DNA of 64,000 nucleotides, taken from Isoetes taiwanensis. Its lineage: Eukaryota; Streptophyta; Lycopodiopsida; Isoetales; Isoetaceae. Positions 1 to 58,847 of this stretch are shown here, in pieces; position 1 is the first letter of the stretch, and each line of letters begins with the position of its first letter. The position numbers and the translations under genes are program-made. The notes beneath the pieces were generated by a model. It ran no database searches, was not told the DNA's origin, and saw only the letters and a list, made by a program, of their open reading frames with translations. The stretch spans positions 620,001 to 684,000 of the forward strand of contig JAJEKV010000223.1 in assembly GCA_021234155.1 (NCBI GenBank). The letters are read 5' to 3'.

Positions 1-603
1 AGGGAAGCGTGGAGGTCAGCTATGGCGAATTTGGAGCTTAAGTCCGGCGGCTATGGCGGAAAAGGGCGCTCAGAGGAAGCACACGTCCGAAAATATAGTT
101 CAAAATTCAAATTTCAACTTTTAACTTTTTATAAAAATTTTCAAAAAAAATATTAATTTTTTTATAAAAATTTTTAAACAGGCGCGTATAAAAATACGCG
201 CGACCGTATGGGGCGCTGCGTTGCTTATACGCGTTTTATTTTTCAAAAGAAACACCTCTGAGTACAGCAGCGCCCCTTTTCATTTTTCGGCGGTCTGTTG
301 TCCTTTTAACCTCGGGAGACGTGCCCCCCTAGGGTAATTGAGAGGTGCCCGATCCATTGGAGCCATTTTCGCCTTCATCCGAGCTACCTACAAAAAGTTA
401 TAGCTCTTCGAAACTTGGGTCTTCCAGTCGGCCCAGACTTCTTAAGGAATTACAGTCTATTACATTAACCTAGCACTAAATCAAACATCAAAGACTTAAA
501 CAATCACTCTTGCTTAACTCTCTCTCCTAACTACCGAACTAGCGAGTTAGGGTTTAGTCAGTGCTATGATTTCGAGTATCCAAAAACACGGCTCGATACC
601 ACC
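1..603 (-). mobile_element. Primer site and leader of a second, tandem F1 unit (cut by window edge)
   Basis: This stretch is almost base-for-base the same as 5801-6402, the primer site and untranslated leader of the complete element. It lies beyond the left LTR, where an ordinary insertion would show host DNA. The primer-site copy near 592-603 (gctcgatacca) has lost one base compared with 6390-6401. The simplest reading is that a second F1 interior follows in tandem and shares the left LTR. Its ORFs lie outside the window. Confidence 0.85.
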
Positions 604-2228
604 GTGGACGCCTCGAACATATCGACCCTGACGATATACATACGGGGACTTTCCCCTCCCATGGCGACCAATTCGCCACGAGCAGGGCCCTCCGTCTAAC
701 TCGGGCCATCTATAATAAGACGCTCAAGTGAAGGACACAGAGGGGTCATTCGGCCCACGCCTTCAATGGGCTCCTACGTCGCGGAAGCATGAATACAAGG
801 GTTAGCACACAGCATAACTCACATATAAATAACCACCACGAAGGGTGGCACATCCATCCAAGTACCAACGACAAAGAATATGCATCTAAACCTAAGAAAA
901 CACCCCAAACCCCGGTTCTACCCGGCTCGGACTCGGTGAGGATCGACCGACGTACTGGGCCTCAAGAGATCGCCAGACCGAAGTCTTGGCATGGCGTTGG
1001 CTGGCATAGAACATCGGCTAGGGTTGTCCACTCCATCCGCCCCCCCGTGCACACTTTGCGGATGGGTCGAGTCACGCTATGGGCCGCTATAGCCTTGGGA
1101 GACGCAGGCTCGAGGTATCACCCCTGGCGAGCCTACTCCGGGGTTCATGGCGCCCGGTCCGATGAGGCAGGGGGGAAGCGTCCCCTTCCGGGAGATCACA
1201 GTGGTTCCATGGGTGAGCTAGAGGAATACGTGCGCGATCAACACGACCCCGCATCCATACCCGACTTACTCACCCTAAATCTACTCAAAGTGCAAGGTGC
1301 CCCATACGGGTCACACCTCTACACCCAGGGAGTGTCAGACCCATACCCGGCCCTCTACGTGACCGGCTATCGGGCCTAGCCCACTGTAGGAGTCTCAGGA
1401 GCCTTTTATGTTCGTGCAAGACCCCACCCCCACTTCACCACTGTGTCCCTTCTCTGGTGCTAAGCCAGACTATAGCATCTACGACCCGGTGGTCTCTTGT
1501 ACACAGGCCGCATTATTGGGATAATACAGGGCTCTATCTAGGAGCATACTACAACATATGGGCTCAGAGGTCTCTACCCTCCCCGTAATCCCCCATCTCG
1601 AGAGTGCTAACTAAGCAGAGAACTATCATTCCATCCTTCGAGAGCAAAACCAGAATCAATATATAAAGAGAACTTACCTTTTCAACCAAGGGTTAGTTCC
1701 TACGAATAAAAGCACAGAGAGAACAGACAAGACAACACACAAGTGCCCAAAAGGGGCGCTACCCTAGAATTCTCAACTACACTAACCACCCACCTGTATT
1801 CCTGCTCGACCCGTTATTGTTTGGTGCCTCCATCCCTCTGAAACTCGATGCTCAGCTCTAATCACACAGGTGCAAGTACTTGGGCAAGTTGGCGCTCAGC
1901 TCAATCTCAAGGTAGGCGCTCAGCTCAGGTCGATTATGGTGGACATGGGGGTGGTGATCCACCTTATTGGTCCAAAATAGCATTCACCATGCTGGCCAAT
2001 CGGGTTTGGCTAGGTGGCGCCTTCCCAAGGGGTATTTAGCTTAATTATCCTTTGTTAATAATAATCCCTTAAATGTAGGTTATTATCTTTAACAATTAAA
2101 TTAGCATAGCTAATTTAATCCTTTTTAGGTCAACCCTCTAGGTTACCATACCCCATGGTAGCGTATCTATACTGGGTGACGTGTCAATATATTTATACGT
2201 ATACCATATAAATACTTGGAACGTCACA
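604..2228 (-). repeat. F1 long terminal repeat, left copy
   Basis: About 1.62 kb, matching 6403-8011. The minus-strand start TGTGACG at 2228 directly follows the polypurine tract. The part nearest the primer site (about 590-1300) differs from the right copy mainly by small insertions and deletions, while the rest is nearly identical. This could be mutation or consensus error in the assembly. The ORFs at 789-1379 and 1848-2039 lie within the LTR and do not look like genes. Confidence 0.9.
2175..2186 (-). promoter_or_regulatory. Conserved ACGT-core motif in LTR U3
   Basis: On the minus strand this reads TGACACGTCACC, about 45 bases inside the LTR start and next to AT-rich TATAAATA-like sequence. 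The same motif sits at the same place in the LTRs at 7958-7969, 16059-16070 and 57200-57211, although the surrounding sequence has diverged. ACGT cores are typical bZIP-type sites. A promoter role is inferred. Confidence 0.5.
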
Positions 2229-2242
2229 TTCTCCCCTCCTTA
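2229..2242 (-). other. Polypurine tract of F1 element
   Basis: The minus strand reads TAAGGAGGGGAGAA directly against the LTR start TGTGACG. This is the expected position and composition of the plus-strand primer for reverse transcription. Confidence 0.85.
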
Positions 2243-2774
2243 GAATTAATGCTGTCCTCAGCATTGAGTTAGATATAGATATATTAAAAAAAAACACATT
2301 ATAAAGGGAGATAATTCCTTATTTCCAAAAGTAATATATTAAAACTTTAAAGTTTCAAACAGTTCAAGCACTGAAGTGCATTTCAGATGATCATCATAAT
2401 CAAAAGTTCAAGGACCAAGGTCCAATATCAACATTAGAGTAGCAACAAAAGAAGACGTGTAGACAAAATAAAACTTGAAGAGTTCGGGTCATCAGCAACC
2501 CTCTAACATTTGCAGGTCACGTACTGCTCACTGGCCTGCACATGTCAGTATATCAGTATATATAATTAGATTGTGGTTGAAGGGACCACCCCCTTATAGT
2601 AAAAAAAAAAAAATAAACTCTATCTACCAGGGGACCTAACATGTCTATGGTTTGCAGTTCATTGCAGCATAGGAAATGGTCAAGTTCCCATTGTAGCCGA
2701 GATGAACGCAGCCTATGACCTATATGGTCTCATAGCAAATCGTGGTCAGGTCAACATTGACGGTACACCACGTC

Positions 2775-4217
2775 CTAGAGAACACAAAGGTTTAATATGA
2801 TACGGTAGCGCATCAAAGTGGCGCTGGGGCTAGCAGAGAGGGCGGCTCGAGCTGCTGCCTCTGGTGGCAAGCAAGTAGCCAAAGGTGCCGCCACAAGGAG
2901 GCGCATGTTGGCGCAGCCCGCCACGTCCCCCAATGCTGCTATAGCCAAATCCCTATGGACCAAAGTAATGGTGGTGACGTGATAGTCAATCTTCTTATGG
3001 CCCGCTGAAGTGGATATGGCTCGGAGCGCCCACCAAGAAGCTTCAGAGGAAGGCCCTAGGTTCTTGGAGAAAAATAGCACCTCTCCTTGGCGGAAGGCCG
3101 AGAGAAAGAATCGGGCCACATGGTTCCCCATTGCCCTAACCTGAGGGTCGGTGGAGGTCTCCGCTTCTTTCTCCAAGTTGATGGGAAGCTTCTCCTCCTC
3201 TTCCTCTTCCTTGTCCTCCTTAAGGCTAACCTTGGTGTCCCAAAGATCTTCCTCGTCTTGATGCACCTCTCCCATGGTGATTTGCAAAGGCGGGTCCGAA
3301 AGAGTAGGCCGTATCTGGGCCGAAAAATGCTCTTCTGGAGGCTGGGGTGTTTCACTTAACAAGAACTGGCGAAGTGACAAAAGAGTCTCAACGGGTTCTT
3401 GCTCTTCAGCCTGATATGCCAATAGGTTCTCTACTTGTGCGGATTGCACAACCGGTGTGGTGAAGTCGATGAAGTCATCTTGGCAATACTCCGCAAGATC
3501 ATAGAGAATCTCTATCTTCTTGCGGCGGATCCCCGTAAGAACGCGGTAGGCCCACATGATATCCTCAAAAATCAGGTACTCTTGGTCATTCAAGAGTACG
3601 GTAGGAAGAAGGTTTAACCCTTCGAGCTTGAGGCCTTTCTGTCGGCTGGCAGGGGCTTCTGTGGCAAGTTCCTTCCACCTTACAAAATCCTGCTCGTTGA
3701 CGACTTCGTCATCTTCTGGGTCAGGAGGTAGGGGCGTAGAAGAATGCTCAGCAGGAATCTCCTCATCCTCTATGTACTGGTCCATAATGATGGCCAGTGC
3801 GAATCGGGCCTCAAAACAAGTTTCCCGATCTATTGTGACAATAGGGAGGTCGGTCCCTCGCCTTCTGATGCCTTTGATGACATTGCGGCCATGCTCATCA
3901 CCCCCTAACATCTGGTGCAGGGTATGGAAGTCAAGGTAGAGCTGCTCGTCGTCTTCGTTGTAAACGCATGCAGGTACAATCTCCTCACAATAAAACTGAA
4001 GAAAAGCGGCATAATCTGGATGGCCCTGCATGTTGGAGATGAGATCTACCTGCTGGAGCAGGTAGGGGTGAAGAAGATCAAAGGGAACCGCAGGGTCCCA
4101 ATGCTCTCCGTCCAAATACCACCTGCCAAAGTTGGGCGAGCCATGAGGGTTGAAGGCGCGAAGGGGGAGGAAAGGAGGCGCTGAAGCAAGAAAGAAAAAT
4201 GAAACCCTAATGGCCAA
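2775..4217 (-). CDS. F1 ORF B: acidic 480-residue protein of unknown function
   Basis: Second ORF of the F1 element, 171 bases after the H3-fusion ORF and in the same direction. No known Gag, protease or polymerase motif is visible. Residues 1-290 look globular and rich in aromatic and acidic residues. Residues 150-175 and 318-345 are strongly acidic, including a run of six glutamates near 338-343. Residues 360-435 are different: ITLVHRDLAIAAL near 417-429 has the hydrophobic spacing of the last helix of a histone fold, preceded by a helix-like stretch. The acidic tracts recall histone chaperones, but composition alone proves nothing. It may simply be a structural protein of the element. The ORF is open over its whole length, which argues against long decay. 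Confidence 0.65.
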   Translation of the reverse strand: MAIRVSFFFLASAPPFLPLRAFNPHGSPNFGRWYLDGEHWDPAVPFDLLHPYLLQQVDLISNMQGHPDYAAFLQFYCEEIVPACVYNEDDEQLYLDFHTLHQMLGGDEHGRNVIKGIRRRGTDLPIVTIDRETCFEARFALAIIMDQYIEDEEIPAEHSSTPLPPDPEDDEVVNEQDFVRWKELATEAPASRQKGLKLEGLNLLPTVLLNDQEYLIFEDIMWAYRVLTGIRRKKIEILYDLAEYCQDDFIDFTTPVVQSAQVENLLAYQAEEQEPVETLLSLRQFLLSETPQPPEEHFSAQIRPTLSDPPLQITMGEVHQDEEDLWDTKVSLKEDKEEEEEEKLPINLEKEAETSTDPQVRAMGNHVARFFLSAFRQGEVLFFSKNLGPSSEASWWALRAISTSAGHKKIDYHVTTITLVHRDLAIAALGDVAGCANMRLLVAAPLATCLPPEAAARAALSASPSATLMRYRIILNLCVL

Positions 4218-4388: not shown

Positions 4389-5747
4389 TCACCTAAAATC
4401 CCCTCGGATCCTTCGTGCCAGCTGGAGGTCCTTGGGCATGATGGTGACCCGCTTTGCGTGTATGGCGCAAAGGTTGGCGTCACTGAAAAGCTCGACGAGG
4501 TAAGCCTCGGTAGCCTCCTGGAGAGCGAGGATCGCAAAAGCTTGGAACCTTAGGTCGGTTTTAAATTCCTGGGCGATCTCCCGTACAAGCCGCTGGAAGG
4601 GGAGCCGACGAATCAATGGCTCGGTAGACTTCTGATACTTACGTATCTCCCGAAGTGCTACCGTGCCCGGTCGAAACCTATGGGGCTTCCGCGGCTTAAG
4701 GGTCGCCTTAAGCGACGGAATGGATTTCCCGCCGGTTGAAGGATGCTTTGTCCGCTGAACGATCTGGTCCCGTCTCTGAGCCGATGCCTTCTTGGCGATT
4801 GTTGCATCCTGCTGCAGTCGGGTCTTATAGTGCACCCCACTCTTAACAGGTTTGGACTTCGCTCTCTTCAATCTCCGATTACCCCGCTCGTACGGCTGCT
4901 GTGGGTTTGCCGGCTGGTTCACGTTGACAGGGTTTTCCTGGGGGTTAACGTTTTGGGCAACACCTAGGTCCTGCTGGTCAACCTGCTGGTGATCTTGCTG
5001 GCCCCCCTCTTGATTCCCGCTCTGCTGGCTATGAAGGTCCTCCCCTTCCTCTTGGAGCCGCTCTCGCTCTTCATCCCTGGCCTCTTTGTCCAGACGCATT
5101 TGTATGCGCCGAGCAATCTCAGTATGGTACCTGTCCGGCCGTGCTCGCATGTCCTCCTGCACGGATTCCAGGTGGCCTTGACTAAACCTCGGCGGGACAT
5201 TCTCAAAGATGAAGCTGTTAAGGTCTTCATTCCAAGAGAAGGTAGGAAGATTAAAGTATTCTCGGTACGTAAGTATACGACCTTTCCCCAAGTAATAAAA
5301 ACGTTCCATTCTTATGTCTGGTGGAGCACTGGCTATCTGGTGCAAGTCTTCCACTCTCGCAAGATGCATGATCCTCTGGGCTTCATTCCGAACAAGCTCG
5401 GCAGGGTCGTCATCTGGTCCTGGCGAGGGGTAAAACTTAACCACAGCCCATGCGCGGTCCGGCTGCTCCACGAGGGTATAGGCCTGATCGGCTTCATTCA
5501 ACTTGATGAGAAAGCGCTCGTTGAAGTGGAATATAGGGTAAGGGACTCTTCGGCCCTCGACAAAATGCTTGACGAAGAGATCAAGAATGGTATCTATCAA
5601 AGGGTCTTCGTCGGCAAGATGCTCGACTAGCGCGGCAAATAGCTGGAATACGCTTAACTTCTTCAAGTCCACGGTTAGCTTGAAGCGTGGCATGGCTATA
5701 CTAACAAAAAAACAGCAAGGGAGGAGGAAGGTGAGGCGCTCAGGCAA
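4389..5747 (-). CDS. F1 ORF A: novel N-terminal domain fused to histone H3
   Basis: First ORF of the F1 element, 452 codons from 5747. The Met at residue 19 (5693, MPRFKLTV) is an equally good start. Residues 19-200 form an unrecognised, probably globular region. Residues 200-236 are charged and helical. Residues 237-290 are Q/N rich. Residues 285-331 are basic. Residues 332-452 (4754-4392) are histone H3: RTK and STGGK from the tail, then [46 protein letters not shown] and LARRIRG. By eye about 80 of the last 95 positions agree with plant H3. The usual H3 is 135 residues and starts at its own Met, whereas here it is the C-terminus of a larger protein. Loop 1 has no CENH3-type insertion, so this is a canonical H3 type. 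Position 41 is Phe and 90 is Leu, a mix of plant H3.1 and H3.3 markers. The domain assignment is firm; the function is unknown. Confidence 0.92.
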
Positions 5748-6389
5748 GGCGGGACGGCGCTAAGGAGTAAGTAAGGGCACCGAGGTGTAGGGCAGATGCA
5801 AGGGAGGCGTGGAGGTCAGCTATGGCGAATTTGGAGCTTAAGTCCGGCGGCTATGGCGGAAAAGGGCGCTCAGAGGAAGCACACGTCCGAAAATATAGTT
5901 CAAAATTCAAATTTCAACTTTTAACTTTTTATAAAAATTTTCAAAAAAAATATTAATTTTTTTATAAAAATTTTTAAACAGGCGCGTATAAAAATACGCG
6001 CGACCGTATGGGGCGCTGCGTTGCTTATACGCGTTTTATTTTTCAAAAGAAACACCTCTGAGTACAGCAGCGCCCCTTTTCATTTTTCGGCGGCCTGTTG
6101 TCCTTTTAACCTCGGGAGACGTGCCCCCTAGGGTAATTGAGAGGTGCCCGATCCATTGGAGCCATTTTCGCCTTCATCCGAGCTATCTACAAAAAGTTAT
6201 AGCTCTTCGAAACTTGGGTCTTCCAGTCGGCCCAGACTTCTTAAGGAATTACAGTCTATTACATTAACCTAGCACTAAATCAAACATCAAAGACTTAAAC
6301 AATCACTCTTGCTTAACTCTCTCTCCTAACTACCGAACTAGCGAGTTAGGGTTTAGTCAGTGCTATGATTTCGAGTATCCGAAATCACG

Positions 6390-6401
6390 GCTCTGATACC
6401 A
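6390..6401 (-). other. Primer binding site, initiator tRNA-Met type
   Basis: The minus strand reads TGGTATCAGAGC, the classic plant retrotransposon site matching the 3' end of initiator tRNA-Met. It is separated from the LTR end (CACA) by one base, g. Confidence 0.9.
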
Positions 6402-6402
6402 C

Positions 6403-8011
6403 TGTGACGCTCCCTGAACATATACGACCCTCGGACGTATACATACGGGGACTTTCCCCTCCCATGGCGACCAATTCGCCACGAGCAGGGCCCTCCGTCT
6501 AACTCGGGCCATCTATAATAAGACGCTCAAGTGAAGGACACAGAGGGGTCATTCGGCCCACGCCTTCAATGGGCTCCTACGTCGCGGAAGCATGAATACA
6601 AGGGTTAGCACACAGCATAACTCACATATAAATAACCACCACGAAGGGTGGCACATCCATCCAAGTACCAACGACAAAGAATATGCATCTAAACCTAAGA
6701 AAACACCCCAAACCCCGGTTCTACCCCGGCTCAGACTCCAGTGAGGATCGACTGACGGCTGGGCCTCAAGAGATCAGCAGACCGAGTCTTGGCATGGCGT
6801 TGGCTGGCATAGAACATCGGCTAGGGTTGTCCACTCCATCCGCCCCTCCTGTGCACACTTTGCAGATGGGTCGAGTCACGCTATGGCTTCGCTTATAGCC
6901 TTAGGAGACGCAGAGGCTCGAGGTATCACCTGCCGAGCCTACCTGGGGTTCATGACGCCCGGTCCGATGAGGCAGGTCGGGAAGCGCCCCTTCCAGGATC
7001 ACGGTGGTTCCATGGGTGAGCTAGAGGAATACGCGGCCGCATCGGCGACCCCGCGATCCATACCCGACTTACTCACCCTAAATCTACTCAAAGTGCAAGG
7101 TGCCCCCACACGGGTCACACCTCTACACCTGGGAGTGTCGGACCCATACCCCCCTCACGTGACCGGCTATCGGGCCTAGCCCACTGTAGAAGTCTCAGGA
7201 GCCTTTTATGTTCGTGCAAGACCCCACCCCCACTTCACCACTGTGTCCCTTCTCTGGTGCTAAGCCAGACCATAGCATCTACGACCCGGTGGTCTCTTGT
7301 ACACAGGCCGCATTATTGGGATAATATAGGGCTCTATCTAGGAGCATACTACAACATATGGGCTCAGAGGTCTCTACCCTCCCCGTAATCCCCCATCTCG
7401 AGAGTGCTAACTAAGCAGAGAACTATCATTCCATCCTTCGAGAGCAAAACCAGAATCAATATATAAAGAGAACTTACCTTTTCAACCAAGGGTTAGTTCC
7501 TACGAATAAAAGCACAGAGAGAACATACAAGACAACACACAAGTGCCCAAAAGGGGCGCTACCCTAGAATTCTCAACTACACTAACCACCCCACGTATTC
7601 CCCGCCGACCCGCTATCGTTTGGTGCCTCCATCCCTCTGAAACTCGATGCTCAGCTCTGATCACACAGGTGCAAGTACTTGGGCAAGTTGGCGCTCAGCT
7701 CAATCTCAAGGTAGGCGCTCAGCTCAGGTCGATTATGGTGGACATGGGGGTGGTGATCCACCTTATTGGTCCAAAATAGCATTCACCATGCTGGCCAATC
7801 GGGTTTGGCTAGGTGGCGCCTTCCCAAGGGGTATTTAGCTTAATTAATCCCTTAAATGTAGGTTATTATCTTTAACAATTAAATTAGCATAGCTAATTTA
7901 ATCCTTTTTAGGTCAACCCCCTAGGTTACCATACCCCATGGTAGCATATCTATACTGGGTGACGTGTCAATATATTTATACATATACCGTATAAATACTT
8001 GGAACGTCACA
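6403..8011 (-). repeat. F1 long terminal repeat, right copy (5' LTR of the complete unit)
   Basis: 1,609 bases on the minus strand from TGTGACGTTCC at 8011 to GGAGCGTCACA at 6403. It is matched by the left LTR. Unrelated sequence begins at 8012. A target-site duplication cannot be checked because the far end of the array is outside the window. Confidence 0.92.
7958..7969 (-). promoter_or_regulatory. Conserved ACGT-core motif in LTR U3
   Basis: Same minus-strand TGACACGTCACC as in the left LTR, at the equivalent place in the 5' LTR, where it could drive transcription of the H3-fusion ORF. Confidence 0.5.
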
Positions 8012-12398: not shown

Positions 12399-12859
12399 GC
12401 ATCTTCGAACAGTCTATTTAGAAACACGTTGCAATATGTCATGGCCAGTTTTATACAAAGTGAATAATATGGTTTTCAGGTGCTTAAGATTGAAACTCTT
12501 TTCTGCCAGATCATAAGCTAGTTAGATGCTCGTGGACATAAGGTATATGCAAATTTCATTTTATGCTAGCGGAGATGGTTCCTTTTTCAAGGCTGTAAGG
12601 CAAATTTGGCAAAACCCAATGCTCTTTTTTGATATGCTATAATTTTTGTTCTTGCGGGAGGGAGATTCGAGAAACGGTAAGGTTACGGGGTGGAATATAT
12701 ACTTCATTTAATGTGGCTAGGTTTTCTGAAGAATTATTATTTGGTTTGTTGCCTATATTCAGGTTTGTTACAAGATGCTAGCGGCGACAATGGGCCAAGG
12801 AAAGTGAAGATGACGTCTTCTTAGAAGTATCACAATCTTGCCATTGTGGGCAGTTAAAT

Positions 12860-14364
12860 ATGGAGGCTCAGTGCTCACTTTCCCGGCTGCGAAGTAGCAA
12901 CTGCCCTCGCATTACAATGTGGGATGCAGAAAAGATTGGTGAGCCATAAACCTTATTTGAATTTAAAATTTTTAGAACTAGAAATTGACACTCGTCATAA
13001 TGTTGAAGCCCGCTTGAATCCTCAAGAAAAGGAAGAAATCAAAAACATAATCAATAATATGGGTGTCCTCTCTGCTGCTGCACAAAAATTGCGAGTATCT
13101 ATTACCAACTATGAACTTATTCGTGCCGGATTACATCGCATTTATCTTTCCACCATGAACAACCCTGCTGGAAAGGATACTGTCGTGGTGAAGGGGATTC
13201 TAAAAGTAGGGCTCAAAAATTTGTTTATCAGGAAAGAAAATGGCACCATGGTGGAGATAGCTCCCTTGTGTGTGCTGGATTTCTATGTACATTCTTCATG
13301 TCAAAGGTGAGCTTTTGTATTTCAGTCATTTGTTTTCTTTTTCCTTCTATTGAGACTAAAGTTAGTATGTTGAGGCTCTAAATCATTCTAAATCATTCTA
13401 ATCCTGTGCATCTGTAGACAGAGTTGGCCTTGGGCGGCAGTTGTTTGAAGCAATGCTTACAAATGAGAAAAAATGTGCACGCCAGTTGGGGTAAGTTGAT
13501 AGAAAGATGTTATATTCCGTATTTTCTATTGCCCTATAAGGCACCATATACCTTTCCTCTCTTCTTTTTTTAAACAGTTATGATAAGCCTTCATCAAAGT
13601 TGATTTCATTTCTATCAAGGCATTATCACCTCAAGAAGTACTTCCCACAGGTTAGACATTTCAGAAACCTTTTCATGTGAAGTAAACTTGCCATTATTTT
13701 TTGTTAATCACAAGAAAAATTCCAGGCCAACCAGTTTGTCGTCTTTGATTCCTACTTTGAAGACAAAGTTAGCTTGGATAAGGCAAAAGTAAAAGGTAAT
13801 TCATCTGATTTTCCTGAGAAGGCAAATCTTAGCAACGATTCAGCTGGCAGCATCGCAAACAATAAAGCAGGTTGTGCTGACAAGATGGTACTGCATGGTA
13901 GACGGGCTAACAATTTGCCTGAAGGTATTAGTTGTGAGGCAAATTTCTCAGGTGGAGAAAATCATTTGCCAACAAACATGTCATCATTCCACACTCCAGC
14001 TGAGTGTGACCATCAGCAAAGAATGGATGCAACTAACCAATGGCATAAGGATTTCTCTAAAGGAGGAGGAGGAAGACTGATTAATCAAGGTGAAACTCAA
14101 ATTGGCTATTCAGCGGATACAATCAAACGAGTTGGGGATTTAACTATTAAAGAATCTGATCGGATAGTTGGCAAAACCATCCAACCTGATGATCAATATT
14201 GTTATGCAGAAAAACTGCATAAAAATGCCTCTTTGGGGAATTACATTGGTGGTGCCAATGCACAAAGGAAACAGCATTATAATAGCCTCAGGCCACATTA
14301 TGTTTCTCAATTAGCGGGTTGTGGAGCAGCAGCAGCATTGGGCTTCAGGCCATCTTACATGTAA
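12860..14364 (+). CDS. ATAT1: Alpha-tubulin N-acetyltransferase (MEC-17/ATAT1 family), five exons, intact
   Basis: Transfers acetyl from acetyl-CoA to lysine 40 of alpha-tubulin inside stable microtubules, notably in cilia and flagella. Exons: 12860-12938, 12976-13306, 13422-13490, 13578-13650 and 13726-14364. All junctions are GT-AG, and the joined length is exactly 397 codons without internal stops. Residues 14-26 (NCPRITMWDAEKI) match the conserved family N-terminus. PLCVLDFYVH carries Cys125 (human Cys120), QRVGLGRQLF (136-145) is the acetyl-CoA loop, and Asp162 in YDKPS matches catalytic human Asp157. FPQANQFVVF closes the catalytic fold. The tail from about residue 195 is Asn/Ser/Gly rich and not conserved. 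Start chosen: the Met 14 residues before CPRI. The stop TAA overlaps a GTAAGT donor-like site at 14361, so a further 3' exon cannot be excluded. Intron 1 is only 37 bases. Confidence 0.88.
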
Positions 14365-34925: not shown

Positions 34926-35512
34926 TGTTTGGGGTCTGGGTTCGGGAACTCCTGCAAGACAGCCCTCTGTGAGGACCCTTGGATCTAACAGGAGAATCCG
35001 GGAGCTATGTCACGCGGGATTTGCAAGAAAACAAGGAAAAGGGAAAAGAAAACAAAAGAACAATAAGACCACAATAATAAGCTTCCTTGATGTCAATGAT
35101 GATACATGAGCTCTCGCAATCGAGAGAAAACTGAAATGAGACAAGACGCAAAACTCATCTAAAAAACTCATGTGCTAGCTCTACTCATATATATAGTACA
35201 ATGGCCTTTGGCCCAATATAGACACTCTGACTGATTTCGGTGCCGACTCCTGGAAGGAGGCCTGATTTGCAGGAATGCTTGGCGGTGCCTCTTGAAATAC
35301 CTGGAATCTCGCTGACGCTGACGCAGGCCGTGACGGGCCGTCACTTGTCTGAGCGCCTCCTTTTGACGGCAGGCGCGCCCTTTGATTGCGTGGTCTGCTT
35401 GGTCTTCTGCGTGGCCTTTGACGACTGACCCGTGCCTGGTTGTGGATCCTTGGCCTTGACTTGGTCTGTCGTATGCATGAATAGTCCTGTACCAGGAGGC
35501 ACAGGACTAACA
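34926..35512 (-). repeat. 3' LTR of the gypsy element
   Basis: 587 bases. On the minus strand it runs from TGTTAGTCCTGTGCC to CCAGACCCCAAACA. The polypurine tract TTTGGTGGGGGGAG lies directly before it at 35513-35526. Confidence 0.95.
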
Positions 35513-46489: not shown

Positions 46490-46965
46490 AGTGTTTTGAC
46501 GAATACAAAAAGTTAGTCAACTTATTAGTCAGAATACGTAGCAGCTTTTTAGTCATCATTTAGTCAGTAATTAGACAACATACTCGTCAGCATCTTAGTT
46601 AGCCAATTAGTCAGATGTATGAGTCAGTTTAATAGTCATTATATTAGTTAAAAATGAATGGTCATTGTTCTCGTCAATTTATTAGTCAGCAACGTAGTCA
46701 ATTTTTTAGTCATGATTTTAGTCAGGGTTTAGTCAGCTTACAAGTCACACTTTTAGTTATACTATTAGTCAGGCATATTAGTTAGATTATTAGTCAGTGT
46801 CATAGTCAATTGCAAAACGTCATAGTTCTCGTCAGCTTATTAGTCACATCAATAAACACATTTTTAGTCATGTAACTCGTCAAGTGTTTCGTCACGTTTA
46901 TCGTTAGAAAGTTAATCGTCAGAGGAGTAGTCATTATATTCGTCAGATACTAAGTTGGCCAGTAT
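46490..46965. repeat. Right subterminal TAGTCAG repeats of the CACTA element
   Basis: More than a dozen TAGTCAG-like units, mirroring the left end, immediately inside the right terminal inverted repeat. Confidence 0.85.
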
Positions 46966-47021
46966 GTTTGGACCCTCTGACGAATGTTGTGACGTTTAGC
47001 CATCATTCTCTTGTAGTGACA

Positions 47022-48980
47022 GTGAATGAGGTCGAAGACTAAAAAGGCGCAGAGTAAACCTTTGTCTTCAACGAAGAGGTCTGGCCAGATCCGAAGAAAA
47101 TCCTCAGTGCGCAGGTGGACATCAACTGGACCATCGGCCGCATACCACTTCAGAAGAAAGAGGTGGCGGCGGGCAACCACATAATCGAGATAACTGGAAG
47201 GAATAGCGAAGTCGACTGACATGTTGAGGGCGATGTGAATGTAGCCTTCTTGTTTGTTTTGGGCCTCATCAGCAGACTGAACGGCTTGCTGTAGCTGTTG
47301 TTCGAGGTCACGGATCCGGTTCTCCTTTTCTAACAGAAGGCGGGACTGATCACGGACCCGTTTATGAGGAAGCGTGGCATGTGAAGAGGATTGCCCAGGA
47401 GTGTTGAGGCGCAGCGTGGCAATCTCGGCGTCATCAACAATTTTCTGTTTCTGAGCTCCCGTAAGCTGATCTTGAAGAGGCGTGAGCTGAAAGGTCAGCG
47501 TGGACAGCTGTGCTTCTAAAGAGGTGATTCGAGTATCACGCTCTGTGAGGTCTTGAACTTGTTGGCGGTAACTCTGAGAAAGCTCAATATACAAGGTATT
47601 GAGTTTCCCAAGGTCTTTCTCCTTATCGCTCAAGAGGGTATCCTTGTCTTTGACGTGCTCCAGCAATTCCTGAATTGAGGTTTGCAACTGAGCCTGTTGA
47701 TCAGCAAGCAGACTGTTTTGGTCTTGGGCAGTCTTGAGAGCTGCACGGGCCTCTAACAGAGCCTCGTGCTTTTCTTGAAGTTTGTCCTCCAGAGTTTGAA
47801 CTTGTGCGTTGGCAGCTTGAAGGTCTCTGTGAACGGCATCCGAGGCCTCCAGAGACGCTTGAACACCATTCATGAGAGCGTCCTGTGATTCTTGTAACTT
47901 CAGGGCGGCGTCTTGAACATCCTGCTGATATTGATACAGAAGCTGGCAAGGATGTGGAGGTGCAGGGCCTTGTTGCTGCCTTGTCTGAGATGTTTGAGAG
48001 ACATGACGGGAAGTGGAGGGCATGGATTCAGTGGAGGAAGAGGAGACGGTGACATGCATGGTGTTGTGTTGAACATGACCAGGGGAAGAAGGGCGTGAAG
48101 TTCCTGCCTGTTGGTTGTGAGGTAGGGAATGAAAAGATTGATGAGTGGTCGTACGAGATGTGGTCGGGGACCCAGGATGAGGAAGGTATTTGCAGATGAG
48201 GGCTTGAAGATGCGCACCCACAGAGGACTCGAAGCCAGAGGAAGGTGCAGCGCGAATACGATCGACTTCTTGAAGAAGGCAGAAGAACAGCAGTTGTGGC
48301 CAGTCAAGATGGTAAGTGGAGAGAATGGCCGTGATAACAATATTGTAGAATGGTTTGTTGATATGGGTGTTTTTGATGGAATACCCAAGCAATTTGCGCC
48401 ACATAAACTTTACAAAAGTGTCGTGGCTCTTTGCAATATTGGTGAGGCGATGCATGTTTGCTTGATAAGCAGGAGCGCCGAACTGAGTGACATCAATGTC
48501 CTGTAAGGCAGCCCAAGATAAAGAAGGTTTTTGCAACGGAATATGGAATACTTGAGAAATCAGGGGCTGAGTAAGCAAGATGGTGGTGCCATCGACCACG
48601 GTAACATATCCTTCTGGGCTGTTGACGATATGAGCAACGAACTGCTTCAATTGTTCGGGATTCGGTGCAGGGAGATCCAACTGTGAAAATTCGTAAAGTG
48701 CCTGGCGTTCCGCCACTTCACGACTCGGACCAACAAGGGCCTCACGAAAAGTAGGCGTCGAGAAGGTCACAGACTCAAAAAGAGCTGGATCTCGTGGAGC
48801 AGAAGCTTGAAGTGTAAGAAATTTTAGTGCAGTAGCCATGACAAGGAGCGTCGGAAAGGAGCAGGGAGAATTCGCTGGAGAAGGCGGATTGCAGAGAGCG
48901 GAAGACGAAACGCAGATAGGCGAAAAGGTTTTAGGGCGCACAAGTGTTGGCGAAGGGGCATGATGAGGATGAACCGGCAA
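47022..48980 (-). pseudogene. Gypsy ORF3, N-terminal part (split by CACTA)
   Basis: Long ORF after integrase. The Met at 48839 (MATALKFLTL) is a likely start, and the frame opens at 48980. The first 220 residues include LISQVFHIP, FMWRKLLGYSIKN and FYNIVITAIL, reminiscent of the plant transposon protein domain seen in Athila-type elements. Then follow a Ser/Thr/Gln/Pro linker and a long Gln/Ala/Leu coiled coil (about residues 345-560). The frame is cut by the CACTA insertion at 47018-47021, and the last codons before 46950 come from the CACTA end. The natural product would be roughly 1,000 residues. Its function in the element is unknown; an envelope-like or structural role is only a guess. 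Confidence 0.65.
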
Positions 48981-49339
48981 CCGTTGATGATGCCAGGTGG
49001 CGACAGATGCGAAGGAGGCAATGGAGAGGCAAATGTTTGGCTAAGTCCCCAAACGGTAAAGGGAGAAGCAGTGAACGATGGCGATGAGACATAAGAGAAT
49101 GATCAGATGTGACAGCTGGCGAAAGGACGCACATTAATGTTCGACGGGCGTGAAAAGAAGGAATGTCATTTAATGCTGGCAACTCGAAGTGGGATATCAT
49201 TAAAACGAAGGTGTCAGAAGGTACCATGGCTAGATATGCGGCAGGAGAAAAGATTCCCCATTTAGAAACAGCCTTGCATTGCAACCACGTTGGCCAGTAT
49301 TCTGATTGGACCATGTCGACAGGGAGGTCCTCGGTTGGC

Positions 49340-56301: not shown

Positions 56302-56887
56302 TGTTTGGGGTCTGGGTTCAGGAACTCCTGCAAGACAGCCCTCTGTGAGGACCCTTGGATCTAACAGGAGAATCCGGGAGCTATCTCACGCGGGATTTGC
56401 AAGAAAACAAGGAAAAGGGAAAAGAAAACAAAAGAACAATGAGACCACAATAATAAGCTTCCTTGATGTCAATGATGATACATGAGCTCTCGCAATCGAG
56501 AGAAAACTGAAATGAGATAAGATGCAAAACTCATCTAAAAAACTCATGTGCTAGCTCTACTCATATATATAGTACAATGGCCTTTGGCCCAATATAGACA
56601 CTCTGACTGATTTCGGTGCCGACTCCTGGAAGGAGGCCTGATTTGCAGGAATGCTGGCCGTGCCTCTTGAAATGCCTGGAATCTCGCTGACGCTGACGCA
56701 GGCGGTGACGGGCCGTCACTTGTCTGAGCGCCTCCTTTTGACGGCAGGCGCGCCCTTTGACTGCGTGGTCTGCTTGGTCTTCTGCATGGCCTTTGACGAC
56801 TGACCCGTGCCTGGTTGTGGATCCTTGGCCTTGACTTGGTCTGTCGTATGCATGAATAGTCCTGTACCAGGAGGCACAGGACTAACA
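56302..56887 (-). repeat. 5' LTR of the gypsy element
   Basis: 586 bases, nearly identical to 34926-35512 (a handful of base differences), with the target duplication ATAAA at 56888-56892. The close match means recent insertion. Confidence 0.95.
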
Positions 56888-57159: not shown

Positions 57160-58705
57160 TGTGACGTTCCAAGTAGCTATACGGTATACATGCATACCAT
57201 GACACGTCACCAGGACACAATGGGCTTAATGGTCCAAGTGAGGGTTAACCACAATGGTTTTTATTAGCTATGTTAATAAAGCCAAAGCGGATAATTATGA
57301 ATTATAATGGCCTAATTAATCTAATTAAGTCATTATGGTCTAATTAGCTAATTATCACCAATAAGGAGGTGCCACCTGGCCCAAATCGATTGGCCAGGAG
57401 GGACTTACCATTTTGGGCCTAGGAATAGGGGTCCTACCCCATTTTCTCTCCCAAATTCAAATTGGGATTGAGGAGGAGCAGCAACCAGCAGCCTAAGCTT
57501 GTTTTGCCAACAATTACCTACCAGTTTCGAGAGATGGATGCCTACCGTGACCATGGTTCCAGCCAGGACACTGGTTAGTCAGTAGATAGGGTTCTTTTCT
57601 GCTGACACTTCTTTGAGTAGATGGAATGGTTAAATTCTCTTTATGAATTGTTCTGAATACATGAATGGTGATTACATTAGTTCTTTCTGCTTCTTCCGTG
57701 TATTGGGAATTAAGGGCAGGGTAGTGGCCTAAAAGCTTCCTAGGATTAGAGATGTCTCTAATAGATCCCTTAATACCCAATTATGCGGCCTGTGCACAAG
57801 AGCCAACCTGGCTGTGGATGCTATGATGTGGTTCAGCACCAGATAACGAGTATGATGGGGAATCGGGGGTGGGGTCTTGCCTAGCGCGGCTACAGGACTC
57901 CTATAGTGTGCTAGGCTTATAGCTGGTCACCGTGTGTGGGCCGGGTATGGGTCTGACATTCTATGGGCCGGAGTGCGTGAGTCATATGTGACCGTCCTGG
58001 GCTCGAACGGGTTGGTGAGCTGACCTTTAGATTTAGGAGAGTAAGTCGGGTACGGATGCGGGGGTCACTGAGGGGGCACGTGTTCTCTAGCACACCCAGG
58101 GATCCGTCATACTCGGGGAGGAGACCCCTCTCTAACCTGCCTCATCGGACCGGGGAGATGTAACCCGGAGTAGTCCCAAAAGGGTGATTCCTGGGGATTG
58201 CATCTCCAGAGGGCTACAAGCACGTCATAGCATGACTCAGCCTATCTGCAAAGTGTGCACAGGAGGGGCGGATAGAGTGGACAACCCTAGCCATTGTCTT
58301 ATGCCAGCCAACGCCATGTTATCTTCCGTTTGTTGATATCTTGAGACCCTGGCCGTCAGTTGATCACTTGGAGTCTGAGCCCGGGGTAGTGCCTTGTTAT
58401 TGTGTTATTTCATGATGTTATGAATGTATTATCTTTGCCATGATGATGAGGATGGGCCACCCTTCGTGGTGTATATTATTTTGCATTATGATTGTATGCC
58501 AACATATATGTATGCTTCCGCTGTATAGGATTCCCCATAGAGGACGTGGGGCGAATGACACCTCCGTGTTCCTCGCCCGGATACTTGGCCATCCCAGGTA
58601 GTCCGAGTATGACGGAGGGCCTTGCCATGGTGATTTAGTCGCCATGGGAGGGGAAGTCCCTGTGTTTATACGATGGGAGCATCGTATGGTTTTGGGAGCG
58701 TCACA
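57160..58705 (+). repeat. Solo F1-type LTR with intact TACAC target duplication
   Basis: A complete LTR on the plus strand, TGTGACGTTCCAAG to GGGAGCGTCACA, 1,546 bases, flanked by TACAC on both sides (57155-57159 and 58706-58710). There is no interior. It interrupts an older LTR of the same superfamily in the opposite orientation. Solo LTRs arise when the two LTRs of an element recombine. Confidence 0.92.
57200..57211 (+). promoter_or_regulatory. Conserved ACGT-core motif in LTR U3
   Basis: TGACACGTCACC, 40 bases inside the solo LTR, in the position shared with the other F1-type LTRs. Confidence 0.5.
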
Positions 58706-58847
58706 TACACCATAACTAAGGGCTCTACCCCGGGCTCAGACTCCATGGGATCGACTGACAATCAGGGCCTCAAGATAACAACAGACAGAAGTATAACATG
58801 GCGTTAGCTGGCATAAGGCTGGCATAAGGCATGGCATTGAGATATAG

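Follow-up and report, generated by a model that had tools for sequence, protein, structure and literature searches.

An accessory histone H3 fusion in a chromovirus lineage of Isoetes taiwanensis

A large and old family of LTR retrotransposons in Isoetes taiwanensis encodes a protein, ORF A, in which a histone H3 fold is fused to a novel domain. Judged by its gene content, the lineage is an old chromovirus of the Ty3/gypsy group in which ORF A is an accessory open reading frame, and codon comparisons show both parts of the protein, the H3 fold and the N-terminal domain, to be under strong purifying selection across many copies. The copy in the window, the whole stretch of 64,000 nucleotides analysed here, is a deletion derivative without gag-pol.

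The fusion protein and the element that carries it

ORF A lies on the reverse strand in a frame (5747-4389) that the preliminary description gave as a 452-codon ORF. The frame is open throughout, but its first 18 codons lie ahead of the first ATG at 5693, which leaves a likely protein of 434 residues (4389..5693). Its N-terminal domain (5028..5693, residues 19-240) has no relative at E<=10 among 2,215 candidates from 5.8 billion proteins, in agreement with the novelty first claimed for it, and viral and prokaryote contigs yielded no relatives. On the same strand follow a Gln/Asn-rich linker (4818..5027, residues 241-310) whose length differs among copies, a basic stretch with a shortened remnant of the H3 tail (4683..4817, residues 311-355), and a histone fold equivalent to H3 39-135 (4392..4682, residues 356-452). 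Pfam places Histone PF00125 on residues 340-448 (E 3.4e-44), which bears out the in-frame H3 fusion attributed to this LTR element, with histone H3.3 as the top PDB hit (E 9e-51). Aligned with a canonical plant H3 taken from protein P0002, the fold shows 15 differences over 97 positions and no indels, and it carries the H3 signature together with the H3-H3' and DNA-contact residues; Cys110, His113, Asp123, Leu126 and Arg129, singled out earlier as interface residues, are all five present in this alignment. The free N-terminal tail with K4, K9, K14 and K27 that belongs to canonical H3 is absent from ORF A, where the tail is fused and shortened. In the alignment the window copy has STGGK and lacks H3 residues 15-24, K9 is replaced, and K27 has not been retained; the 33 tails examined from 36 copies are similarly shortened, STGGK being absent too in L062 and L063. 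G+C varies by codon position in ORF A, as in the ORF B described below, in the manner of coding DNA. AlphaFold run on the single ORF A sequence, with no alignment, reached a pLDDT of 44, which is unusable and too poor for a fold search.

Self-alignment of the window reveals a repeat of LTR plus leader, 1-2228 matching 5801-8011 at 95.6%. Read on the reverse strand, the element begins with a 5' LTR of about 1.61 kb (about 6403..8011, TGTGACG...CGTCACA), followed by a primer binding site TGGTATCAGAGC (6390..6401), which we take to be of the iMet type and which is the sole exact site within the window, and by a leader that runs from there to ORF A (5694..6389). At its other end a polypurine tract AGGAGGGGAGAA (2229..2240) adjoins the 3' LTR (about 605..2228). 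The LTR bounds come from alignment of the pair; both LTRs start with TGTGACG, and the CGTCACA end is found in the 5' LTR. Past the 3' LTR lie a second leader and a degenerate primer site (1..604, reverse strand) that match the first leader at about 99%, and because the repeat extends in this way beyond the 3' LTR, the arrangement is a tandem one, cut by the window edge. The LTRs, iMet primer site and polypurine tract of the preliminary description are thus all present, but in tandem and with the LTR bounds given here. K2P is 0.053 for the LTR pair, with the differences unevenly distributed, and 0.010 for the leader pair. A 3' tail region (2241..2774, reverse strand) matches at 84% the segment that stands just after pol in a relative on contig C1019 (L064:205-734). 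In the window copy it directly follows ORF B, with a deletion joint near 2775, and gag-pol has therefore been deleted from this copy, which would need its relatives to move.

ORF B (2775..4217, reverse strand) is a 480-codon open stretch with no in-frame ATG before 4031 and no Pfam domain found. Among 7,993 scored proteins it has a single relative, P0122 (43% over 92%), which comes from a 2,953-base ENA contig. In the host genome ORF B was scored at 90 loci, at least 35 of which are closely preceded, in the same orientation, by a match to H3 or ORF A, and its pooled pN/pS of 0.22 indicates that it is also constrained. A common origin of ORF B and the ORF A N-terminus is unsupported (hhalign probability 0.4), and the AlphaFold model made with the one relative (pLDDT 35) was of too low a quality to search with. 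L061 on contig C1014 has the ORF B copy most similar to P0122 (62%); it follows a decayed ORF A, which hints at a third subfamily that another organism shares.

Elsewhere in the window, a solo LTR from a related family is nested in another copy of that LTR (57160-58706, forward strand); TACAC flanks it on either side, apparently a 5-bp target duplication. On the reverse strand, at 34926-56887, LTR-like repeats (34926-35512 and 56302-56887, 98% identical) bracket gag and a Ty3-like pol, with a 696-aa open stretch downstream of pol (46950-49040) that has no Pfam match at E<=0.01. The Mec-17 tubulin acetyltransferase family is matched by an exon-like frame at 12858-13310 (forward strand; E 2e-28), in keeping with a host plant that has flagellate sperm.

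Longer copies carry gag, pol and a chromodomain, which makes the element a chromovirus whose extra ORFs lie after the leader and ahead of gag. We examined 10-kb stretches around 12 copies, the 3' ends of most of which lie outside. The 5' LTR is matched before ORF A in 11 of these, whole or in pieces, at 71-89% (none in L060), the primer site TGGTATCAGAGC precedes ORF A in 10, the leader is present at 73-96% identity in 11, and ORF B follows ORF A in 11, the exception being L053. By Pfam, gag is present in both L050 and L053. In the latter, one frame with gag, protease and RT (L053:5346-7994) precedes another with RNase H and integrase (L053:7998-9998), which is the Ty3/gypsy order, and a chromodomain (PF00385) comes after integrase both there (E 4.6e-6, cut by the end of the stretch) and in L051, which holds the integrase end (E 8.3e-10). 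With gag, protease, RT, RNase H, integrase and chromodomain downstream in its relatives, ORF A loses the place of main ORF that it had been given. At the positions we take to form the aromatic cage of the element chromodomain, the tryptophan is retained and the other two aromatic residues are not (one of three kept). L064, which lies behind L053, has the tail region, the purine tract and an LTR that matches the 5' LTR (LTR K2P 0.046 for this C1019 copy), and paired LTRs, primer site and purine tract are present in both the window copy and the C1019 copy (L053 with L064). No single reading that spans both LTRs contains both extra ORFs: the C1019 copy, in which gag, pol and the two LTRs are all present, passes from ORF A to gag without an ORF B, and L050 has both ORFs in a stretch that ends in RT.

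The gag-RT part of L053, used as a query, scored at least 51 loci among 39,557 candidates, and, by eye, a match to ORF A, ORF B or H3 closely precedes at least 17 of these 51 gag-pol loci. Six of the other 34 were read upstream (L081-L086). ORF B is present in all six, whole or in part; ORF A with H3 is found in L083-L085, is absent from L082 and L086, and is undecided in L081, where an LTR is inserted. Since L082 and L086 have gag-pol and ORF B without ORF A, ORF A is not strictly needed in cis, and with two of six copies lacking it, the H3 ORF is accessory, common yet not universal. The two extra ORFs come and go independently, given L053 without ORF B and L082 and L086 without ORF A.

The genome searched comprises 1,658,258,908 bases in 1,110 contigs, and ORF A was scored at no fewer than 93 loci, window included (108 match rows; 10,839 candidates), spread over many contigs. 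We took 40 short copies from the ORF A hit list, mostly rows without stops. The N-terminal domain is matched in all 40 and the whole H3 core in 36, so the in-frame H3 segment of the window copy recurs in others; the stretches of the remaining four (L040, L045, L046, L048) are too short to span the core, and L048 also changes frame there. Distant relatives lie upstream of three ORF B loci outside the ORF A list, two of them (L062, L063) with an ORF A that is 44% identical and has the full H3 fold, and the third (L061) with a decayed ORF A. Four more H3 loci of the second subfamily were found (L077-L080), three with broken frames. The assembly was built from Nanopore and Illumina reads, according to the available text of its description (PMC8566536), and some frame breaks may therefore be sequencing errors.

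Purifying selection, residue conservation and origin of the H3

A codon alignment of 34 copies (33 of the 40 short copies plus L001, with L040 and L043-L048 left out) yields 561 pairs, for which the median dN/dS is 0.127 in the N-terminal domain, 0.232 in the linker, 0.138 in the basic stretch plus tail and 0.045 in the H3 core, where median dS is 0.78. Pooled over the 34 copies, the corresponding values are 0.239, 0.378, 0.225 and 0.093. On a restricted set of 91 of the 528 pairs from 33 copies (N-terminal dS 0.05-0.6), picked for open frames, which favours low values somewhat, omega is 0.067 in the H3 core (95% site bootstrap 0.045-0.095), 0.163 in the N-terminal domain (0.132-0.200), 0.225 in the linker and 0.183 in the basic stretch plus tail. 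L023, whose frameshifted H3 core has 37 differences, is included in the 34-copy alignment and the residue tallies and excluded from the restricted omega and the site-class counts. The preliminary description had left room for an H3 part that was a one-off chance insertion in neutral decay. An omega of 0.067 in 33 open-frame copies rules this out, and with many copies in frame with H3 and under strong purifying selection, the fusion stands. For the window copy alone, simulated neutral drift from canonical H3 left the ORF stop-free in 3-5% of runs, and 15-20% of runs were as good as the window copy in amino-acid similarity, which is not significant.

Using what we take to be seven H3-H3' sites and 13 DNA-contact sites in H3, the cells that differ from host H3 across 33 copies number 2 of 231 at H3-H3' sites, 44 of 429 at DNA sites and 500 of 2,539 elsewhere, and 33 of the 44 DNA-site changes are K64R or K64Q. 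In 36 copies, two of them from the 44%-identical subfamily, each of the seven H3-H3' residues is present in 35 or 36, and F87, L90 and A107 are fixed. Several changes are near-universal: S87F and T107A (36/36 each), E105S (34), G102E, K64R and A135R (33 each) and R134F (32).

Among the best 150 of 9,064 candidate matches to canonical H3, 15 are complete H3 loci at 96-98% and 135 match at 71-86%. Many of these 135 lie inside long frames, some are known ORF A loci, and every one of those examined, a minority, is part of these elements. The canonical H3 of the host (12 loci, L065-L076) has E77, L90, A31, Y41 and S87 (T87 in L076), presumably an unusual mix of plant H3.1 and H3.3 marks. The element H3 has L90 in 36 of 36 copies and E77 in 24 (D in 11, K in 1), and D77 is found in 119 of 120 other H3 proteins compared, a hit list of mostly long predicted proteins with no known lycophyte among the named ones. 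The E77 and L90 shared with the host point to a lycophyte-type H3 as what was captured, without proving it. In all 44 comparisons of element with host H3 (11 copies by 4 host genes) dS is saturated and dN is 0.10-0.16, and given this saturation of synonymous sites the capture is old.

What the H3 fusion may do

The reading we favour, and hold to be probable if only narrowly, is that ORF A is a chromovirus accessory protein that acts through the nucleosome. Its H3 part would pair with host H4, reach the nucleus along the path by which the host supplies its histones, and be built into nucleosomes as an H3 variant, which would expose the N-terminal domain in the position of the H3 tail. Less certainly, it may then tether the particle or the integration complex to chromatin, beside the integrase chromodomain. 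Tethering to chromatin or marking of the element's own copies, the two roles first put forward for the fusion, would both fit the conserved interfaces. Points against this reading are the replacement of R69 by W in 4 of 36 copies, the single cage residue left in the element chromodomain and the two gag-pol copies that do without ORF A, which lowered its standing slightly.

If ORF A serves instead to counter silencing, then nucleosomes containing the fusion, unmethylatable at K9 and K27, would keep the element's copies transcribable, an outcome like that of VANC reached by a different route. We consider this possible, though unlikely. The window tail, with K9 replaced, residues 15-24 missing and K27 not kept, speaks for it, as do the likewise shortened tails of other copies, and TE-encoded anti-silencing proteins do exist, VANC being one in the available text of two papers (PMC10398659, PMC5735166). 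However, any H3 fold placed behind another domain loses its free tail, so the tail loss may be a by-product, and the presence of ORF A on element copies is a supposition. A related scheme that we regard as rather unlikely would have the fusion replace host H3 at element copies or target sites, where nucleosomes without K9 and K27 would display the element's domain and the integration machinery would read that state; if this were true, the element would write its own chromatin state.

Another use for the fold could be in packaging, where alone or with host H4 it would condense element RNA or cDNA in particles as a nucleocapsid helper. A basic stretch does lie ahead of the fold, the DNA-contact cells are unchanged in 385 of 429 cases, and virus-encoded histones are known from the available text of PMC9396995 and PMC11222145. 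We nevertheless find this quite improbable, as gag has a zinc knuckle of its own, weakly matched, and the H3-H3' sites, with their two changes, are the most conserved of the scored classes, which favours tetramers with H4 over plain nucleic-acid binding. In a further scenario ORF A would hitch-hike on chaperones and import or act as a decoy, taking up free H4 and chaperones so as to enter the nucleus or upset the assembly of host chromatin, with no stable entry into nucleosomes. Positions 87 and 90 distinguish plant H3.1 from H3.3, and position 87 is F in 36 of 36 copies where 11 of the 12 host loci have S and the twelfth T. Such a decoy, however, would have no need of the conserved DNA-contact arginines, and we rate it no higher than packaging.

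An origin from CENH3, or mimicry of it that would aim the element at centromeres, is very improbable. Most copies have P60, I101, E102 and A107, which we take to recall plant CENH3. The marks of CENH3 are a loop-1 insertion and a divergent stretch from helix 1 to loop 1, but in the element the insertion is absent and the stretch is as in canonical H3, with 14 residues the same as in host H3; E77 and L90 also match the host canonical H3, and the copies are dispersed over many contigs. Least credible of all is a functionless captured gene fragment spread by transposition: plant LTR elements do capture genes, as maize Bs1 shows in the available text of PMC13317346, and two of the six gag-pol copies read manage without ORF A, but the H3-core omega (0.045 as the median of all pairs, 0.067 on closer pairs), the occurrence of ORF A in deeply split subfamilies and, less evenly, the drift simulations (few runs stop-free, the similarity test not significant) speak against it, and purifying selection refutes it for the sampled family, although one dead copy may still be neutral.

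Known systems and wider meaning

Plant chromoviruses (Ty3/gypsy, Metaviridae) have the same LTRs, iMet-type primer site, gag-PR-RT-RH-IN order and chromodomain after integrase; what sets the present element apart is a pair of additional ORFs, the H3 fusion among them, that separate the leader from gag. Many copies in the Ogre/Tat/Retand/Athila group likewise hold large extra ORFs, and Ogre has one upstream of gag. A survey that covered 80 plant species in all, with 8,453 gypsy elements, calls extra ORFs "highly heterogeneous" and reports plant mobile domain, Transposase_28 and Athila ORF-1 as the extra-ORF domains of that group; its main text has the word histone once, for H3K9, and mentions no histone ORF (PMC6317226). 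None of these three domains was found in ORF A, ORF B or P0122 (Pfam, E up to 1).

A parasite genome with its own core histone is likewise met among the giant viruses, and a bracovirus encodes H4. Those histones belong to DNA viruses, whereas here a retrotransposon carries an H3 attached to a domain for which no relatives are known. VANDALs are DNA transposons whose VANC proteins are sequence-specific and, to our knowledge, have no histone fold. VANC, as described in the available text of the two papers cited above, is likewise an accessory TE protein that may act on chromatin. Maize Bs1 likewise holds host coding sequence within an LTR element (available text of PMC13317346), and for transduced genes a copy number of one or few is given (available text of PMC7264820); in contrast, the H3 domain here is kept lineage-wide under selection.

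By title and start of abstract, in a literature with few subscription papers covered, we found no histone-bearing LTR elements. The phrase histone gene capture occurs in the available text of a Helitron-type paper (PMC4067079). In the portions available, the word histone occurs 0 times in the extra-ORF review (PMC7264820), in the gene-capture review (PMC13317346) and in the Isoetes genome papers (PMC8566536, PMC10541799), and none of the four mentions a histone ORF there. We regard the element as one of a known kind, a chromovirus, and its accessory H3 gene as of a sort for which we found no description.

For those who list H3 genes and variants in lycophyte genomes, the element-borne H3 copies call for practical caution. 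Retrotransposon silencing and targeting act largely via histone H3, and the family, together with the selection on it, suggests that these elements may use a histone to act on host chromatin. A lineage with a selected H3 of its own would give a mobile element a direct route to the substrate of silencing, and it raises the testable question of whether a genomic parasite's own histone variant can choose landing sites or escape silencing.
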